Shown piece after piece: positions 21,997 through 64,000 of a stretch of DNA of 64,000 nt. Numbering within the stretch: position 1 is the stretch's first letter; every line of letters begins with the position of its first letter. The stretch lies in the NCBI RefSeq assembly GCF_947498005.1, contig NZ_CANMIW010000011.1, forward strand, positions 1 through 64,000, written 5' to 3'. A model generated the notes under the pieces. The model ran no database searches. It was not told where the DNA came from and was given only the letters and a program-made list of their open reading frames with translations. This stretch comes from an uncultured Winogradskyella sp. (GTDB lineage Bacteria > Bacteroidota > Bacteroidia > Flavobacteriales > Flavobacteriaceae). The position numbers were made by a program, and so were the translations under genes.

Positions 21997-22046
21997 TTTT
22001 TCTTAAATAAAATACGGATTAACGGTAATTGTGTCATCATAAAACC

Positions 22047-22124
22047 TGTCATTCTGAACTCGTTTCAGAATCTAAATTGATAATTCAGTACATTTTATTG
22101 AGTATCTGAAACAAGTTCAGATTG
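22047..22124. repeat. Double-palindrome intergenic repeat, copy 1
   Basis: GTCATTCTGAACTCGTTTCAGAATCT (22048-22073) and the inverted half TATCTGAAACAAGTTCAGATTG (22103-22124) frame about 30 nt. Each arm is itself a partial palindrome (TTCTGAA...TTCAGAA). Related copies lie at 51490-51578, 47231-47303 and 23521-23597. It sits between convergent genes. Confidence 0.75.
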
Positions 22125-42475: not shown

Positions 42476-42510
42476 ATTTTAGAGAACAGACTAATTTTAT
42501 AATATAAAAG

Positions 42511-42544
42511 AAAAAAGCACAGTTTTAAAACTGTGCTTTTTTTT
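42511..42544 (+). terminator. Terminator of the E2 gene
   Basis: A perfect AAAAGCACAGTTTT/AAAACTGTGCTTTT stem is followed by T run and TTATGATTCT. It is nearly duplicated at 43394-43422 on the other side of the next gene. Confidence 0.88.
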
Positions 42545-42679
42545 ATGATTCTTATATTATTTTATTTAGGAGTTCACTGATAAAAAATACAAAATTTGTA
42601 TTACAGCTAAACATTGTATGTATAGAGTCGACATCTAATATTTTATTCGTCTAAATTTGATTGAATTTAAAATTGATTT

Positions 42680-43366
42680 ATGAAAAAAGGTTACTATTTA
42701 TTAATATTTATGTTGGTTACGATATTTACGTATGGGCAAGAGATTAATTTTCAGAAAAATGAAAGCTATATTGCTCGTAAGCATAAACTAATACAAAAAT
42801 TAAATGTAAGTGGTGATAGTTTAATTTTAGAAAGTGAAAGAAAAAAGATAAAGCAAGTAGATATATTAAATGAAGACTATTTGGAGAGTATTATTATTGA
42901 TAGCACCAAAGGAAGAATTAATCTTAAGAAATTAGCAATAGGTAACTATGTAATACAAGCAAGAATTGGTAGAAATTGGATTGTTATGTACATAGAGAAA
43001 ACAACAGGTATTTACACAAGTTTAAATATAAAAGCTGAGTTGAAAGAAAAGAGTTCAGAAAAAGAAGTATTTGAAGAAGACAAAATGTATTGGGTGGTGT
43101 ATGAAAGTAATTCACAATTTTCATCGCAAAAAACAATGGGCTTAAAATACGTGGATGAGATACAAGAAATGATTTCTAAAGTTAAATTAGAATTGAAAAC
43201 GGAAGATGGAAAATACAATAAGTTAATTGTTTATGAAGTTTATAATAAACCAATGTTTATGAGAAGACAGCTTAGAAATAAAAAATATTATAAGTCAAGA
43301 AAATCAAAATTCTTTAATACGAAACCTTTATATAATTTAGAAATTGAAATAGAAGATAAATCTTAA
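42680..43366 (+). CDS. Exported protein of unknown function
   Basis: The product has 228 residues with a signal peptide ending near FTYGQ. The mature part is strand-rich in the middle (SIIIDSTKGRINLKKLAIGNYVIQARIGRNWIVMYI-type sequence) and lysine-rich at the C-terminus. I do not recognise a domain. It lies alone between two nearly identical terminator hairpins (42511-42544 and 43394-43422), which suggests that it is an inserted single-gene module. It borders the cassette-like repeat region. Confidence 0.65.
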   Translation: MKKGYYLLIFMLVTIFTYGQEINFQKNESYIARKHKLIQKLNVSGDSLILESERKKIKQVDILNEDYLESIIIDSTKGRINLKKLAIGNYVIQARIGRNWIVMYIEKTTGIYTSLNIKAELKEKSSEKEVFEEDKMYWVVYESNSQFSSQKTMGLKYVDEIQEMISKVKLELKTEDGKYNKLIVYEVYNKPMFMRRQLRNKKYYKSRKSKFFNTKPLYNLEIEIEDKS

Positions 43367-43393
43367 TTTTAAAAATTCTAACATTATAAATAT

Positions 43394-43422
43394 AAAAGCA
43401 CAGTAAATAAAACTGTGCTTTT
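43394..43422 (+). terminator. Terminator duplicated around the 42680 gene
   Basis: The stem AAAAGCACAGT/ACTGTGCTTTT has loop AAATAAA, T run and GTGATTCT. It matches the hairpin and 3' flank of the E2 terminator. Confidence 0.85.
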
Positions 43423-43494
43423 TTTGTGATTCTATTGATGTGTCTTGTCCTGAATTATGGCTAAAGGTTAAAATTGATTTTACGCTGATAATTT

Positions 43495-43526
43495 GTATAC
43501 CGTATTAGGTGTTGTGCACAATTTTT
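43495..43526 (-). repeat. Cassette-like module border, distal (partial palindrome)
   Basis: The sequence includes GGTGTTGTGCACAATTT (43509-43524 region). Its arm GTTGTGCACAATTT is an inverted copy, 13 of 14 bases, of AAATTATGCACAAC at 44560-44573. The rest of the ~130-nt palindrome is not intact here, so this looks like the degraded far end of the array. Confidence 0.6.
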
Positions 43527-44056
43527 TTTATTTCCAATATTACCAAAGTCAGAATAGTCATTATTACTCCTTGTAGAATTATCATTCCAATTCTAAATGA
43601 GAATAAATCTATTAATTCAAAATTTTCATTTTCTGGCAAATAATCTCTATGAAAACTTGTCACAATTATCACAAAACGCTCTAAATACATTCCACTTTTC
43701 ATTCCAAATGCGACTAAAAGTACATACCAAAATTTTGATGCTAATTTTTTAATAAGTAAAGTCAGAGGCAAAATTAAAGCGGATAAAAACATTATCCAAT
43801 ATGCCAAAGCATAAGGTCCAGTTGCTCGATTAATAAAAGCGTATTCATCAGGATTCATAGCCATTCCTATTAGATAGAACGTAAAGGTGACTATTGTATA
43901 AATAATTATTGTCCAACGAATTAAATTAAGCGTTTTTTTTGTTTCAAATCGGTTTTTGAAAAAGAGTTCGACAAGTGTTAAAGTCATAATTATTGGAATC
44001 AGACAATAAATCAGGTTCGCATCAACCATTTCAATTATACTTTTATATAACTCCAT
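43505..44056 (-). CDS. Five-helix membrane protein resembling the C-terminal part of NrfD/ActC
   Basis: The product has 183 residues with five hydrophobic helices (LIYCLIPIIMTLTLVELFF, WTIIIYTIVTFTFYLIGMAM, YALAYWIMFLSALILPLTLLI, WYVLLVAFGMKSGMYL, IGMIILQGVIMTILTLVIL). The stretch SGMYLERFVIIVTSFHRDYLP resembles the conserved WLERFVIIVTSLHRDFLP of NrfD/ActC quinone-interacting subunits, but those are far longer. The last residues VHNT and the stop codon are encoded by the module's border repeat. It is co-oriented with, and 11 nt from, the gene at 44068. The function is unknown. Confidence 0.6.
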   Translation of the reverse strand: MELYKSIIEMVDANLIYCLIPIIMTLTLVELFFKNRFETKKTLNLIRWTIIIYTIVTFTFYLIGMAMNPDEYAFINRATGPYALAYWIMFLSALILPLTLLIKKLASKFWYVLLVAFGMKSGMYLERFVIIVTSFHRDYLPENENFELIDLFSFRIGMIILQGVIMTILTLVILEIKKIVHNT

Positions 44057-44067
44057 TTTTTAGTTAT

Positions 44068-44532
44068 TCATATTTTGAAATCCCAAGTTGATTCAAAATT
44101 CCAATGACTTTTGTTAATAGGAATTGGAAAACTTTGGTCATGAATTATATCATAAGTATTGAGGTCAACTCTCCAAGTCAAAGTTTGTAATTCTGAATAT
44201 TCAGTTTGAAAATGGACTTTTGATTCAAGCCATATTAATTCAGATAATAATTTTTCGTATTTAATAAGCCATTCTTTTAATTCATATTCTACTGATTTTA
44301 GATTTGAACCAAAGTGAATGATTCGGCCAGAATATTCTAAATTCGGTCGATAAATTTCATTATTATGATTGCTGGTAATAGCAAACATTTCTTTTGAAAG
44401 TGGTGGCCATTCATCATTGTTTTTTAGATTTCCAATTACTTTATGATTATGGCTTTTAACTTTGTTTTTTATTGGACTTTTCCAAAAATCCATTTCTTCA
44501 ATATAACCATATAATGTGGTTCTCATTCCCAT
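44068..44532 (-). CDS. Hypothetical protein, repeat-bounded module
   Basis: The product has 154 residues (start at 44532, or two codons later at a second ATG). It is soluble, aromatic- and charge-rich, with no signal peptide, cysteine cluster or recognisable domain. It contains SHNHKVIGNLKNNDEWPPLS and ends WNFESTWDFKI. It lies between the attC-like repeat (44561-44704) and the membrane gene at 43505, reading in the same direction as the latter. I cannot assign a function. Confidence 0.6.
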   Translation of the reverse strand: MGMRTTLYGYIEEMDFWKSPIKNKVKSHNHKVIGNLKNNDEWPPLSKEMFAITSNHNNEIYRPNLEYSGRIIHFGSNLKSVEYELKEWLIKYEKLLSELIWLESKVHFQTEYSELQTLTWRVDLNTYDIIHDQSFPIPINKSHWNFESTWDFKI

Positions 44533-44560
44533 AGATTATCGACTTATCGATGTTTTCTTA

Positions 44561-44704
44561 AATTATGCACAACGTGTTTGTGTATGATTTAGTTGCGTGT
44601 TTTAAGCACTAAGGTTAGCAAATAAATCACAGATAGAAAGCCTGCGAGGACTTTCGTAAGTAGGCTATAACTAGCAATGATATACACGGTGTTGTAGGTA
44701 GTTT
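44561..44704. repeat. attC-like imperfect palindrome, copy A (about 131 nt core)
   Basis: The outer arms GCACAAC (44567-44573) and GTTGTAG (44691-44697) are complementary in the core ACAAC/GTTGT. Second arms GTTTGTGTAT and ATACACGGTG lie inside. The centre includes CTATAACTAGC and an eroded stem GAAAGCCT-GCGA-GGACTTTC. By eye about 85-90% of the centre matches the copy at 59766-59904. The arm to the left belongs to one module and the arm to the right to the next. Confidence 0.75.
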
Positions 44705-45302
44705 ACTCTTCAAATACTAAATCAATATAAGGTATTCCAAAATAGAATAATTGCTGAGATGATTGACTTCCGAAAGTTGCGCTGGTAATTATTAAATTAT
44801 TATTGCTAATTGGAAAATTCAAGTCATCATTATTAACGTTTTTTACTATTCGTCCAATAAAAATTGTAATATCATTAGTCGAATTATTTTGAACTCTTTT
44901 GATTGTATATGAGTTTCCTGAAACTAAATTTACAGGATTAATAGCTACATACTCTGTTATAGAGGATGAAAAAGTATGATTTTCAGAATATAATAGCATG
45001 TCGTTCGTGTTGTCATAGATTTCTATCAAATATGGATAAGTTTCAAAAGAAGGTTGGCTACTATATCCGATTTTGCAAATAGATTCATTTGATAAGACTT
45101 CAAATGTATAAGCATGATTAATTACATCAAGTGTTATTTCTTCTTGATTATTTACATCCATTAATAAATCAGTATAGAGTTGATTAAAAGTAGTGTTTGA
45201 CGAGTCACATAATTGATTTTGTTCCGAATCATTGTCGTCATCATTATTACAAGAATTGAAAAAACCAATCGCGATTATAAATAAAATTATTTTTTTAAAC
45301 AT
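44703..45302 (-). CDS. Hypothetical lipoprotein, repeat-bounded module
   Basis: The product has 199 residues. A lipoprotein signal peptide with lipobox FFNSC is followed by an Asn/Asp-rich linker (NNDDDNDSEQN). The rest is strand-rich with no recognisable fold. The stop codon lies inside the module's border arm (44692-44704). The gene fills the segment between that arm and its inverted partner at 45344-45356. The product is probably anchored to the outer or inner membrane; its function is unknown. Confidence 0.65.
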   Translation of the reverse strand: MFKKIILFIIAIGFFNSCNNDDDNDSEQNQLCDSSNTTFNQLYTDLLMDVNNQEEITLDVINHAYTFEVLSNESICKIGYSSQPSFETYPYLIEIYDNTNDMLLYSENHTFSSSITEYVAINPVNLVSGNSYTIKRVQNNSTNDITIFIGRIVKNVNNDDLNFPISNNNLIITSATFGSQSSQQLFYFGIPYIDLVFEE

Positions 45303-45343
45303 ATTCTTCTTAGTTAAGTTATTGTATAGAGCATTCGGTTCTC

Positions 45344-45455
45344 AAATTACCTACAATTCACTGATAAAAAAAACGTTTCAATGTTTTTTATCAAGCGTTA
45401 AACGAAGTTAGCTTTTTAATTTTACGAAGCCAAGTCAGCTTTTTCTTTCTTACTA
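45344..45455 (-). repeat. Conserved leader of repeat-bounded module A
   Basis: The sequence starts with the arm AAATTACCTACAA (45344-45356), an inverted copy of 44692-44704 (12 of 13). A 10-bp inverted repeat TGATAAAAAA/TTTTTTATCA (45362-45393) follows, then GCGTTAAACGAAGTTAGCTTTTT. About 40 nt of it are nearly identical to the leader at 61551-61650. It lies upstream of the first module gene on the minus strand. Confidence 0.7.
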
Positions 45456-51459: not shown

Positions 51460-51489
51460 CAAATAAGGTAGATTTAAAAGCCACAAAAT

Positions 51490-51578
51490 CTGTCATTCTG
51501 AATTTATTTCAGAATCTTAATGATCTGATGATTATCCTTTCAAAATAGAATCTGAAACTAATTCAGGTTGATAAACTA
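51490..51578. repeat. Double-palindrome intergenic repeat, copy 2
   Basis: The sequence contains TGTCATTCTGAATTTATTTC (starts 51491) and the inverted half GAATCTGAAACTAATTCAGG (starts 51549). It parallels copy 1 (22047-22124) in both sequence and spacing. It lies downstream of ftsY. Confidence 0.75.
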
Positions 51579-59262: not shown

Positions 59263-59637
59263 TTACACGTGCTGGTCTATTAAAATAGCATTACCATCTG
59301 GATCTAAAACCACAAAACTTGCTGGACCAGAAGTTGCCGTTTCTTCTATTTCACTAGCAAATGTTACAGCGTTAGATTTTAAATGTGTTTGAATAGCTCT
59401 AACATCATCAAAATTTTCTAAAGTATTGGCGTTTTGGTCCCAACCAGGATTAAAGGTAAGAATATTGTTTTCAAACATACCTTGAAACAAACCAATCAAT
59501 GATTCGCCATTTTTCATGATGAGGTAATTTTTTTCTAATTCACCACCAAAAACGGAGAATCCTAAAGTTTCGTAAAATGCTTTTGATGCCTTTATGTCGT
59601 TTACAGCAAGACTTACTGAAAATGCGCCTAGTTTCAT
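59263..59637 (-). CDS. VOC-family (glyoxalase-like) protein
   Basis: The product has 124 residues. The vicinal-oxygen-chelate fold is shown by FSVSLAVNDIKASKAFYETLGFSVFGG, the strand-helix repeats and the C-terminal GPASFVVLDPDGNAILIDQH. The metal-binding positions are only partly conserved, so activity is uncertain. The family covers glyoxalases, dioxygenases and antibiotic-binding proteins. It stands 1 nt upstream of the broken TfoX-like gene, in one operon. Confidence 0.87.
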   Translation of the reverse strand: MKLGAFSVSLAVNDIKASKAFYETLGFSVFGGELEKNYLIMKNGESLIGLFQGMFENNILTFNPGWDQNANTLENFDDVRAIQTHLKSNAVTFASEIEETATSGPASFVVLDPDGNAILIDQHV

Positions 59638-59765
59638 AATTTTGAGTTTAAGTTAGTACTTAAAGGTAATGAAAGTTTTAATTATGACTTTTAGTAGGTG
59701 TGTTTTTTAAATAAATATAATAATTTGGTGCTCTCAGAGCTTTAAATTTAATGGGATTTTGAACA

Positions 59766-59904
59766 GTCGATACACGGTTTTGTGTATGATTTCGTTGCGT
59801 GTTTAACCACTAAATTTAGCAAATAAATCACATATAGAAAGTCCGCGAGGACTTTCGTAAATAGGCTATAACTAGCAGTGAATTATACAAGGTGTTATAT
59901 ACCG
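59766..59904. repeat. attC-like imperfect palindrome, copy B
   Basis: The sequence contains the second arm TTTTGTGTATG (from 59778), the conserved centre CTATAACTAGC (59866-59876), and a perfect internal hairpin GAAAGTCC-GCGA-GGACTTTC (59837-59856). The right border arm TTATATACC (59895-59903) is an exact inverted copy of GGTATATAA at 61554-61562. The outer left arm is degenerate. Confidence 0.75.
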
Positions 59905-60908
59905 TTTTCTTTCTTCCAATCGGTCTTCAAATATTTTAAAGCATCTTCTAAAGCTTTACTTGAAGGTTTAGGGTTAAAATCTAATTCTTTTCTTGATTTA
60001 CTAATATCATAATCTTGTTTTAAGCCATAAAACATATCCAAGTAATGTCTCTGTAATAAAGGCTCTTTGCCTGTTAATTTACTTCTGAATTCCATTAAAC
60101 TAGCTACAGAATATAATAAACATTTTGGTACTTTTTTAGGTGTTTTTAATTTTAGTTGCGGATATAATTCTGATGCTATTTTTACTGTTTCTTGTAATGT
60201 TGTATGGTGCTCATTAGATAAAATATATCTTTCTTGATTTCTGCCTTTTTTCATTGCATTATACATACCATAAGCTACATCTTTTACATCTACCCAATTT
60301 AAAGTTACGTTTGTGTCTACAGGTATTTCTCCATTTAAAACTTGTAATACAAGCTTGTTAGAATAACTTAACTTATAAGCTTTAGACCCAATCATAGCAG
60401 AAGGTAAAACAAGAACAGTTCTGATACCATACTTTTTTCCTAATTCTAATGCGAGTTTATCGGAATCATTTTTAGAATTATAATACCAGTTTCGTCTGTC
60501 TTTGTTATATCCATTATCAACATTTGCAGGTAATTTTGTAAAATCTAAACTGGCTACAGAACTTACATAAACGATATTTTTGACGCCACATTCTTTAGCA
60601 ATGTCAAACAAATTTTGAGTTCCTTGCATATTATTATCATAAATTTCAGTTTTAGGGTTTTTAGCCCACATACTGAAATTTGCAGCCACTGCATATAAGT
60701 TTGTAACTCCTTGAAATGCTTTTTTTAGGGATTCTCTGTCGGTAATATCAGCTTGAACAACTTCACAGTCTAACCCTTTAAAGGGTTCAGTATTATTAAT
60801 ATTTCTTACAGTTGTTCTTACTTTTTGGTTATCCGAAAGTAAAAGCCTAATTAGGTTGTTTCCTAAATGTCCATTTCCGCCAGTTATTAATGAAATTTCG
60901 TTGCTCAT
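59895..60908 (-). CDS. NAD-dependent epimerase/dehydratase (extended SDR)
   Basis: The start at 60908 gives MSNEISLITGGNGHLGNNLI, with 337 residues. An upstream in-frame ATG eight codons earlier is less likely. The Rossmann motif is ITGGNGHLGNNLIRLL. The active-site region shows SVASLD and Y-x-x-S-K as WYYNSKNDSDK (a Y-N-S-K variant of YxxxK). These are typical of dihydroflavonol-4-reductase-like SDRs. The gene's stop codon is part of the border arm of the module (59895-59897). It is downstream of, and probably co-transcribed with, the Crp/Fnr gene. Confidence 0.87.
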   Translation of the reverse strand: MSNEISLITGGNGHLGNNLIRLLLSDNQKVRTTVRNINNTEPFKGLDCEVVQADITDRESLKKAFQGVTNLYAVAANFSMWAKNPKTEIYDNNMQGTQNLFDIAKECGVKNIVYVSSVASLDFTKLPANVDNGYNKDRRNWYYNSKNDSDKLALELGKKYGIRTVLVLPSAMIGSKAYKLSYSNKLVLQVLNGEIPVDTNVTLNWVDVKDVAYGMYNAMKKGRNQERYILSNEHHTTLQETVKIASELYPQLKLKTPKKVPKCLLYSVASLMEFRSKLTGKEPLLQRHYLDMFYGLKQDYDISKSRKELDFNPKPSSKALEDALKYLKTDWKKENGI

Positions 60909-60969
60909 AATTTTTAAATTTTGTTTGAGCAAATTTCGACACCTTTTAAGCGGTTAGAAATAACATTTG

Positions 60970-61539
60970 TTAGAAAGCGATTTGTTTTCTGATACGGCTT
61001 AAAGATTGAGGTTCCATTCCTAAAAAAGAAGCAATATTGTCAATAGATACATTTAAAGCTAATTTTGGATACTGTTTCACAAATTTAATATAACGTTCTT
61101 TTGCAGTTAAAATTTGAAAATCTTTAACGCGGTCTAATTTGCAACTTAAATGTTCATTTGTTACTTCTTTGACAAATATTGCCCAAAATTTTGTTTCCTT
61201 TTGTAAAATGTCAAAATCAAGTTTTGATATTTTTATTAGATTACAATCCGTGATAGTTTCATAATAATCAACGGATGGGGTTTCTGTCATAAAGCTATCT
61301 AAGGATGTGAAAAAATCTTGCTCAGCTACAAGATGTTGTACAACAATCTTTCCGTCAATATTTTGATATCCTTTTACAATTCCAGTATCTAAAAAATAAA
61401 TATATCGCTCAACTTTTCCTGCTTCTAAAAGATTAGTATGAGCTGAAATTTGTTCAGAAACAAAATACTTTTTGATAAAATCAATTTCGTTTTGAGTTAA
61501 ATCAATTTTTGATTGTATGTAATTAATTAGATTCTCCAT
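60970..61539 (-). CDS. Crp/Fnr-family transcription regulator (second copy)
   Basis: The product has 189 residues. The N-terminal cyclic-nucleotide-binding-like barrel includes SAHTNLLEAGKVERYIYFLDTGIVKGY. The C-terminal helix-turn-helix is IASFLGMEPQSLSRIRKQ. No conserved cAMP-binding residues are seen. The gene lies 61 nt upstream of the epimerase start and in the same module, between the leader and the border repeat. It may control the epimerase. It is similar in layout to the 26219-26791 regulator. Confidence 0.87.
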   Translation of the reverse strand: MENLINYIQSKIDLTQNEIDFIKKYFVSEQISAHTNLLEAGKVERYIYFLDTGIVKGYQNIDGKIVVQHLVAEQDFFTSLDSFMTETPSVDYYETITDCNLIKISKLDFDILQKETKFWAIFVKEVTNEHLSCKLDRVKDFQILTAKERYIKFVKQYPKLALNVSIDNIASFLGMEPQSLSRIRKQIAF

Positions 61540-61550
61540 TGTTGTGTCGT

Positions 61551-61650
61551 AATGGTATATAATGTCCCGCTAATATTAAAGCGTTTTAATGTTTTATGTC
61601 CAACGTTAAACGAAGGTAGCTTTTTTGAGATATAAAGTCAAGTGACTGAC
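61551..61650 (-). repeat. Conserved leader of repeat-bounded module B
   Basis: The arm GGTATATAA (61554-61562) is the exact inverted partner of 59895-59903. Read on the minus strand, the leader contains AAAGCTACCTTCGTTTAACG, then ...ACATTAAAACG and ...GACATTATATACC. About 40 nt match the leader at 45384-45415, with 4-5 differences. A CGCT...AGCG dyad lies near the arm. Confidence 0.7.
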
Positions 61651-61737: not shown

Positions 61738-62388
61738 TTAACTCATACTTTTTAGCACTTTAACAATTTCATCAGGTTCAGAGCGCGTTCTGTAATCTAC
61801 ATTGACGTAATTCCATTTTACAATGCCATTTCTATCTAAAATAAAGGTTGCAGGAATAGGTAAAACATTAGCGTTACCATTATTAATGGCTTTTAAATCT
61901 AGTCCACGATCTACACGCATATGTTCCATTAAAAACTCAGGGACTTCCCAAGCTACACCATATTGTTTGGCAACTTTAGCATCTTGGTCCGACAGCACTG
62001 TAAATTCCATTTTACTAATTTCATTTTCAGTTAAAGAATCATCTGGTACTTCTGGGCTAATAGCAACTAGAGTTGCACCTAAAGCTTGTATTTCACTAAG
62101 TTTAGCTTGTAATGCTCTTAATTGTAAGTTGCAATAAGGACACCAACTACCACGATAAAAAGTAACTACAACAGGTCCTTTGTCTAGTAAGCCAGATAAT
62201 GAAATCGGTTGTCCTTTTGGGTTTGGTAATTCAAATTCTATAGCTTTATCGCCAACTTTTAGAGCATCTTTTCCGTCTTCAAAAGCTTTGGCTTTAGCTA
62301 TAACATCATCAACGCCTTGCATAAATTCAGGTTTTGCGTTTCGTCCTGCTGCAATTTTAGCGTCGGTTTGTTCTTTTAGTGTTTTCAT
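61738..62388 (-). CDS. Peroxiredoxin-like (AhpC/TSA fold) protein
   Basis: The product has 216 residues with no signal peptide. The thioredoxin-fold domain has VVVTFYRGSWCPYCNLQLRALQ, with a CxxC site at the peroxidatic position. After it come SEIQALGATLVAISPEVPDDS and ...RVDRGLDLKAINNGNANVLPIPATFILDRNG. This is the peroxiredoxin-like subgroup with a CPYC centre. It probably reduces peroxides or acts as a thiol-disulfide protein in the cytoplasm. It is not in the repeat-bounded module and has its own upstream region. Confidence 0.9.
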   Translation of the reverse strand: MKTLKEQTDAKIAAGRNAKPEFMQGVDDVIAKAKAFEDGKDALKVGDKAIEFELPNPKGQPISLSGLLDKGPVVVTFYRGSWCPYCNLQLRALQAKLSEIQALGATLVAISPEVPDDSLTENEISKMEFTVLSDQDAKVAKQYGVAWEVPEFLMEHMRVDRGLDLKAINNGNANVLPIPATFILDRNGIVKWNYVNVDYRTRSEPDEIVKVLKSMS

Positions 62389-62498: not shown

Positions 62499-64000
62499 TT
62501 ACAGCTCGTAAGCATTATTATTTACAAAGAATAAAGAATTCACAAAAAACAATTTACCGTTTTCCCAAAAGCTTCTAAAAAGAGGATTATCTACCATGTA
62601 AATAAAACTACCGCTTCCCATAGTTTCCTCACCAAAAACCAAAGTTTGGTCTAAGTTTTTTACAGCATTTTGACCTGCAAATCCAGAAAAGACTTTGGTG
62701 TCATTTAAGTAAGCCACATTATAGCCACTGTCTAATAAATTGTATGCAGAACTACCTAATTTTAATGTGAAATAGTTGTCATCATAACCGAAAGCCATAG
62801 GATGCGTAGCATCTACTTTAGTATTAAAAATGGCACCTGTAATTAAGTGGTTACTGTATTCGCGTTCGCGATTGGCGTAAGGTGTTAAGTTGTCGTCCTC
62901 GTCTTCATCATCGTCTGAATCTTTATAACTTAAACTAAATCCATCCTTACCAGCAAAACTGGCTAGTGCACCATCAATAGCGATTACTTTTCCACCAGAA
63001 CTTACCCATTTTTTTAGTTTCGTCATGTTATCACCAGTCAAAACTTTACCGTAATAACCATTTGGTATAACTAAAACGTTGTATTTATTCAGGTTGGTTT
63101 TGCCTAAATCATCGGTATTGATAGAAGTTACTGGGTAGTGTAATTGTTGCTCAAAGAAATGCCATATCTCACCATAACTTAAAGAGGACGTACCATCACC
63201 AGAAAGTATAGCAATTTTTTGCTTATTGACTAACTTAATATCTGGCGAGCCAATATCTGGTGTTTTGTGAGAAAATCCAGAAGTAATTTCTGTTAATGGT
63301 TGGGCATGTTCTTGTGCAATGGTATTCAATTTTGATACCATTTTTTCAATATGCTTGTTGTCGCCTTTAGTAATAATTAAAGAACCACGTCCAAAGGTTT
63401 TATCATTAGAAGAAAATGCTTTTTCAGTAAAACGCACCTTGAAATTATGTTTCAATAAAGCGGCTAAAAACTGAGCATCTTCCATAGAATTCCATTTACT
63501 TACATAACCGTAAGCATCATTTAAAACCTGGAGAGATTTTTTACTCGCCATTGTATTACTGCTTACTTTAGACGTTGTAGCAATAGCATCTAATCCATAA
63601 GCGTAAGGCAATGACCAAGCTGTAATATCATATGTTAATGAGTCGGAAAGCAATGTGTTGGGTTCAAACAAAACCTTAACCATTTTTCCTTTTGGTTGGT
63701 TAGAATGTACTACCAAAGCATTACTGTCTGCATTAAAACTACCTTGCTTGCCTGTAGCATAATGGTAACCAGAAACTTTAGTACTTGTAGCGTTTTCAAA
63801 TGTAATTTGATGTTTGTTTAATAGTGTTTTTAAGCTATTAATTTTGTCTTCATTCCCTTTTAAGACGTAGCTTTTATATTTTAGATTGGCATTATTGAAG
63901 AATTTACCAAACTCTGTATTCAGTTGTTTTGCGTTTTTTGAAGCCATTTCTACAGTAGAAATTCCTGTAGTGGTATGATGCGTTAATCGTTCTACCAAAG
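62499..64000 (-). CDS. Zinc carboxypeptidase-like (M14) protein, 3' part only
   Basis: The frame is open to the right edge, so the start and the catalytic domain lie outside the window. About 500 C-terminal residues are visible. Residues include the end of the M14 domain linker (RLTHHTTTGISTVEMASKNAKQL). A glutamine-amidotransferase-like domain follows (KIAILSGDGTSSLSYGEIWHFF, LVIPNGYYGKVLTGDNMTKLKKWVSSGGKVIAID). This C-terminal pair is characteristic of the large flavobacterial M14-family peptidases (about 830 residues in total). The zinc ligands cannot be checked. Confidence 0.8.
   Translation of the reverse strand, partial: LVERLTHHTTTGISTVEMASKNAKQLNTEFGKFFNNANLKYKSYVLKGNEDKINSLKTLLNKHQITFENATSTKVSGYHYATGKQGSFNADSNALVVHSNQPKGKMVKVLFEPNTLLSDSLTYDITAWSLPYAYGLDAIATTSKVSSNTMASKKSLQVLNDAYGYVSKWNSMEDAQFLAALLKHNFKVRFTEKAFSSNDKTFGRGSLIITKGDNKHIEKMVSKLNTIAQEHAQPLTEITSGFSHKTPDIGSPDIKLVNKQKIAILSGDGTSSLSYGEIWHFFEQQLHYPVTSINTDDLGKTNLNKYNVLVIPNGYYGKVLTGDNMTKLKKWVSSGGKVIAIDGALASFAGKDGFSLSYKDSDDDEDEDDNLTPYANREREYSNHLITGAIFNTKVDATHPMAFGYDDNYFTLKLGSSAYNLLDSGYNVAYLNDTKVFSGFAGQNAVKNLDQTLVFGEETMGSGSFIYMVDNPLFRSFWENGKLFFVNSLFFVNNNAYEL

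Follow-up and report, generated by a model that had tools for sequence, protein, structure and literature searches.

The segment described here belongs to a window (the whole stretch of DNA that was analysed) of 64,000 nucleotides from an uncultured Winogradskyella sp., whose genome of 3.88 Mb is available in 46 contigs. Between an AhpC/TSA-family gene and a glyoxalase-family gene we found a leader followed by a unit, module B, which on the minus strand runs from its own R' end through a Crp/Fnr-like gene and an epimerase gene to an attC-like site (Table 1). The latter is composed of the R'' arm GGTATATAAC (59895-59903), L'' TTGTAT, a central hairpin, L' ATACAC and a G. The first-pass annotation of this DNA had described perfect inverted border arms, an epimerase stop codon formed by one of them, and a module A with different arms but with the same palindrome and leader. 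All of this was confirmed: the arms TTATATACC (59895-59903) and GGTATATAA (61554-61562) agree in 9/9 positions, the stop codon TAA (minus strand) occupies 59895-59897, the palindrome recurs as a direct repeat of 87 nt at 44601-44687 (87% identity) and the leader as a repeat of 66 nt at a distance of 16,208 nt (77% identity), and the arms of module A are indeed unlike those of module B (TGTAGGTA/TACCTACA; TTGTGCA/TGCACAA). The repeats are also well above chance, with 40 BLAST matches of the palindrome throughout the genome and a leader that recurs in many other genomes. The proposal that both modules are mobile, follow one rule and share the leader as insertion site stands, but they differ in composition as module A consists of two cassettes and module B of one cassette with two genes, the true borders of which are 61562 (left edge) and 59775 (attC end).

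Table 1: Features of modules B and A in the window (↓ marks the crossover point here and in the text).
Feature	Position	Strand	Description and basis
Left flank, AhpC/TSA-family gene	61738..62388	(-)	domain and neighbourhood comparison
Leader, promoter-like part	61611..61641	(-)	TTGAC ... 20 nt ... TACCTTCG; from sequence and conservation
Leader, attachment site	61563..61614	(-)	R''-like TTCGTTTAAC and hairpin, to the crossover A(61563)↓T(61562)
Inserted cassette, module B	59775..61562	(-)	1,788 bp; R'/R'' complementarity and attC profile
R' arm, cassette 5' end	61554..61562	(-)	TTATATACC on the minus strand
Crp/Fnr-like gene	60970..61539	(-)	189 aa; cNMP_binding PF00027
NAD-dependent epimerase/dehydratase (SDR) gene	59895..60932	(-)	up to 345 aa; PF01370
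attC-like site, module B	59775..59903	(-)	profile match 103.8 bits and alignment
Eroded right half of landing site	59761..59774	(-)	TGTATCGACTGTTC; counterpart in G010 TTAAACGAACTGCT; homology inferred
Right flank, glyoxalase-family gene	59263..59637	(-)	domain and neighbourhood comparison
Second leader, module A	45354..45428	(-)	covariance model 76.1 bits
Module A cassette 1	44573..45356	(-)	gene 44703-45302 (199 aa, lipoprotein-like signal); attC-like site 44573-44693
Module A cassette 2	43470..44572	(-)	genes 44068-44532 and 43505-44056; truncated attC-like end TTGTGCACAACACC... (by eye)

The palindrome, about 120 nt in full length, belongs to a family of attC-like sites. As an exact-pattern regular expression missed most of the sites we adopted a profile search, which revealed 56 copies in the fetched contigs of the genome, most of them arranged in tandem with a spacing of 0.5-2 kb on short contigs whose ends coincide with repeats. 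In the direction of the genes a copy has the form NNNNNAAC-ACC-GTGTAT...ATTGC...central hairpin...GCAAC...ATACAC-AAACAC-G↓TTRNNNNNN. RNAalifold applied to the whole alignment with RNA energies returned almost no structure and no consensus fold, with pairing visible only by parts, and therefore the pairs were counted part by part: L'' and L' covary (GTGTAT/ATACAC 23 times, GTATAT/ATATAC 7 times), and so do the base 5' of ATTGC and the base 3' of GCAAC. In 36 cassettes the R' end was compared with the reverse-complemented arm of the attC that closes the same cassette, and 8.06 of 9 bases match, compared to 4.72 of 9 for the end of the next cassette and 4.56 ± 0.25 after shuffling, and none of 20,000 permutations reached the observed value; such a match to the own end is the signature expected of units that would move as circles joined at G↓TT. 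Since the arm of module B also matches its own 5' end, as in integron cassettes, the Crp/Fnr-like and epimerase genes form a single two-gene cassette, the perfect border arms being its R' and R'' boxes. The first-pass annotation took the epimerase to be the probable target of the regulator, and such a control may exist within the cassette. Sites of this family were matched in 201 of 249 Flavobacteriaceae genomes and in 67 of the 68 genomes that carry leaders.

The leader of module B matches a covariance model at 61563-61636 with 61.4 bits, and the source genome has two copies only. In relatives the leader reads TTGACTTT-N14-CTAMCTTCGTTTAAC, followed by a hairpin with the loop ATTRAAAC and then by the cassette. 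At least 117 DNA stretches show the exact form of the first part, nearly all of them from Flavobacteriales (Algibacter, Polaribacter, Hyunsoonleella, Olleya, Lacinutrix, Winogradskyella and others); among these matches L208 and L227 are not leaders. With the covariance model, leaders were found in 68 of 249 genomes of the family and in 64 of 235 genera, and five complete genomes possess 20, 27, 16, 9 and 16 leaders scattered round the chromosome on both strands. The conserved box TTGAC/TAnCTTCG resembles TAnnTTTG, the -7 box of Bacteroidota (cited in PMC7366714), and the predicted promoter probably drives the cassette genes. In the hairpin 92.0% of the cells are paired (69.8 ± 1.9 when shuffled), 57 cells show double changes (19.3 when shuffled), and leaders with their own arms fold at -6.29 kcal/mol, compared to -4.08 ± 0.17 with arms swapped. 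As the single empty leader L203 folds no better than its own shuffles (z -0.03), it is covariation and not energy that supports the hairpin.

Several leaders deviate from this scheme. L182, L246 and L248 have the promoter and GTTTAAC without the hairpin and are joined almost directly to cassette-like starts, possibly representing decayed or alternative joints. In L061, L065, L197, L202, L209, L233 and L241 the hairpin loop contains a REP-like insert (e.g. CTGAGCGTAGTCGAAG, GCTGAACTCGTTTCAGTATC), and a similar repeat is present in the window at 22038-22077 and 51482-51521. Tandem leaders, each with a cassette of its own, were observed at L209:1541 and 2413 and at L224:2458 and 4255, and in L209 the sequences upstream of both leaders are duplicated as well (CTGCTTTGCTATGCTCTCGTTTTGCTTGAC), hinting that leaders may duplicate.

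To define the crossover point we compared the junctions of 82 leaders. In eleven of them, the empty ones, the leader is directly followed by TTAAACGAA, a sequence reverse-complementary to the TTCGTTTAA of the same leader; 40 are filled, with TTAAACGAA following 0.3-3.6 kb downstream, nearly always right after an attC-like 3' end. Empty sites end with ..N↓TTAAACGAA and filled ones read ..N↓cassette..attC-G↓TTAAACGAA. The base 5' of TTAAACGAA is A or G in the empty sites (6/5), whereas 39 of the 40 filled right ends have G, and on the leader side of filled sites the base before TT is again A or G (17/9). The strands are therefore exchanged just 5' of TT, and the G of the right end comes from the cassette. 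The crossover in the leader is often A↓TT rather than the integron-canonical G↓TT; in classical systems a change of the base before TT lowers recombination (PMC4792948). Downstream of 31 of the 52 testable filled leaders the exact 8-nt partner (R'') of the first cassette end was found, compared to 7% in the control. The leader is a fixed landing site and no part of the cassette. An empty site had been expected to retain one copy of the palindrome, which was not supported: the palindrome belongs to the cassette as its attC-like site and is lost together with it, leaving behind the leader joined to TTAAACGAA. The right half-site of module B has eroded, and this copy may therefore be fixed and perhaps past excising.

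The address of module B is formed by the gene 62499-63998, AhpC, the leader, the cargo and the glyoxalase. The same address carries about 7 kb of different genes in G030, a 283-aa gene in G032 and, without AhpC and with the right half-site intact, a 301-aa gene in G010. Similarly, the address of module A (odhB, cargo, leader, exonuclease) is occupied by different genes in G003, G027 and G020, and it is empty in G019 where only 178 bp separate odhB and exonuclease. The first-pass annotation had proposed a search for relatives in which the module B site is empty, and relatives with differing or no cargo at one address were found; the epimerase-Crp/Fnr pair is not a constant feature of its place in all relatives, as G030, G032 and G010 have other genes there. 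Downstream of odhB the gene 42680-43366 sits between similar terminator hairpins AAAAGCACAGT..ACTGTGCTTTT (42504-42549 and 43374-43431), and G019 has one copy of the odhB terminator hairpin and no gene like it, which suggests a separate insertion.

We therefore regard the pair as a two-gene cassette of an integron-like system, put into the leader by site-specific recombination just 5' of TT (probability about 0.85). Cassette unit, landing site, crossover point and the swap of cargo at orthologous addresses are all read from sequence comparison. According to the proposed mechanism the landing site would combine a promoter-like sequence with a folded, attC-like half-site downstream of it, and the attC-like site of the cassette would recombine with this leader; strand exchange just 5' of TT would then give leader..N↓TT-cassette..attC-G↓TTAAACGAA. 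Recombination would proceed on folded single strands, catalyzed in trans by the tyrosine recombinase that heads the cassette arrays, and an active leader promoter would read into the cassette genes.

This 389-aa recombinase is located at the head of an array on contig C4 of the source genome, and members of its family adjoin attC sites in 16 of 21 genomes of the genus including the source, with contig ends cutting the view in several others. Its gene is oriented along the array in some genomes and divergently in others. In L017 the first cassette starts at ATATAAGGAG↓TTGCCAGT directly after the recombinase gene, and the arrangement in G002, G017 and G019 is similar. This first cassette (L017:204-1623, G000 contig C4) encodes a CBASS-like pair of a SMODS oligonucleotide cyclase and a SLATT_4 effector with two TM segments (PADLOC E 3e-124 and 5e-78), and elsewhere the arrays carry genes for a type IIG-like methyltransferase (L019:7272-8591), for an OLD-like AAA ATPase (L021:2104-3783) and for a TonB-dependent receptor (L020:2591-4777). 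The array recombinases are closest to NCBIfam XerA_Arch and PDB 4a8e, from which they differ by an N-terminal extension, their position at the head of attC arrays and separate profile scores (345-530 bits with the family profile, versus 152-182 for genomic XerC/D). Like the XerA/XerCD enzymes they lack the IntI-specific stretch: TIGR02249 gave no match above its cut-off in 25 genomes of the genus, the matches skipping positions ~181-239, and in the alignment to VchIntIA (2a3v) the recombinase advances from 294 to 300 while the chain runs from 197 to 248. The additional domain of IntI is described as an adaptation of the integron integrase to folded sites (PMC4792948), and the insertion is regarded as a requirement for the handling of folded attC sites.

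The recombinase is present in 54 of 68 leader-positive and in 102 of 181 other genomes (odds ratio 3.0, p=0.0007), a significant but loose co-occurrence, and none of the 80 leader loci contains it, so that the link between enzyme and leader is a putative one. At E<=1e-80 it was absent from 14 of the 68 leader-positive genomes, including the complete and leader-rich G229 and G267; G229, G267, G189 and G306 have 12-19 leaders each and no array recombinase at this threshold. Such genomes, together with the missing IntI insertion and the Xer proteins encoded in the source genome, leave some room for an explanation in which the site is as described but XerC/XerD or another recombinase moves the cassettes. 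We consider this unlikely, since the array recombinase is found heading attC arrays in the majority of the 21 genus genomes and is enriched together with leaders. Somewhat favoured, with clearly more reserve than the cassette nature of module B itself, is a distributed integron of the Flavobacteriaceae. In addition to arrays headed by a recombinase without IntI insertion it would comprise tens of scattered, promoter-armed and folded sites, which would be served in trans and would each take up and express a single cassette or a few.

The cassettes share with those of integrons the order TTRNNN end, gene(s), R''-AAC, L'', hairpin, L' and G, the crossover G↓TT, the tandem arrays and a cargo that is mostly of unknown function with some defence genes. 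The attC arrays show R''/R' and L''/L' pairing, an attI-like site lies beside the recombinase at the array head, and the crossover is G↓TT with G on the attC side in 39/40 and A or G on the leader side. In contrast, the host family is Flavobacteriaceae and the recombinase is without the IntI-specific additional domain; because of this missing domain, and because the platform is present more than once and away from the recombinase, we did not file the system as an IntI integron. The leader resembles attI/Pc as a fixed capture site beside a promoter-like sequence that would read into the cassette, but unlike attI it is found away from the recombinase in many scattered copies per genome, is palindromic and covarying, mostly carries one or a few cassettes and often has A before TT. 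In the Treponema chromosomal integron, the accessible part of whose description does not mention leader sites, the recombinase arrangement is unlike the divergent one seen in other Winogradskyella-group genomes (L161, L162, L164).

Chromosomal cassettes away from an integrase are also known from attG sites, for which single attC insertions with no integrase close by are described (discussed in PMC12901181). The cassettes might have landed at arbitrary attG-type sites with the leader being merely a host promoter, in line with 80 leader loci without recombinase. We find this improbable, as attG sites are described as divergent from classical att sites whereas the leader is repeated, covarying and strongly conserved across genera with its promoter-like sequence, and its right half TTAAACGAA is found past the last cassette and joined to it in empty sites; this conserved split site largely refutes such an origin. 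Still less probable is that the hairpin acts as regulatory leader RNA for ordinary genes with cassettes next to it by coincidence: its position between promoter-like box and genes would fit, and covarying pairs are equally expected of RNA, but the genes after each leader are unrelated, empty leaders share no common gene, the right half-site lies beyond the cassettes and Rfam has no family for the leader, the sole match across six sources being a tRNA. An ordinary transposon or island with terminal inverted repeats can be dismissed despite the inverted arms flanking the genes, as each cassette has its own arms, the palindrome is found at one end only, no transposase is among the cassette genes and the crossover is a single point without target duplication.

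Integrons have been regarded as very rare in Bacteroidetes, with integrases without cassettes known at first and then one complete integron from Salinibacter ruber (IntegronFinder 2.0, PMC9024848), and none of the published taxon models for attC comes from this phylum (PMC8352920). Programs for detecting integrons need the IntI domain to be present and work with attC models derived from other phyla (PMC9024848, PMC8352920). Our search, which covered open-access literature, gave no description of a leader/cassette system of this kind.

In summary, Flavobacteriaceae had been considered almost free of such cassette systems, and here we describe landing sites for cassettes, with a promoter-like sequence, that are scattered through the chromosomes of marine members of this family. 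Should the system prove active, a major marine family would hold a large pool of cassettes that has been overlooked, the IntI insertion would be unnecessary for cassette capture, and the expression of cassettes could be distributed among many places in the chromosome rather than confined to one array head.
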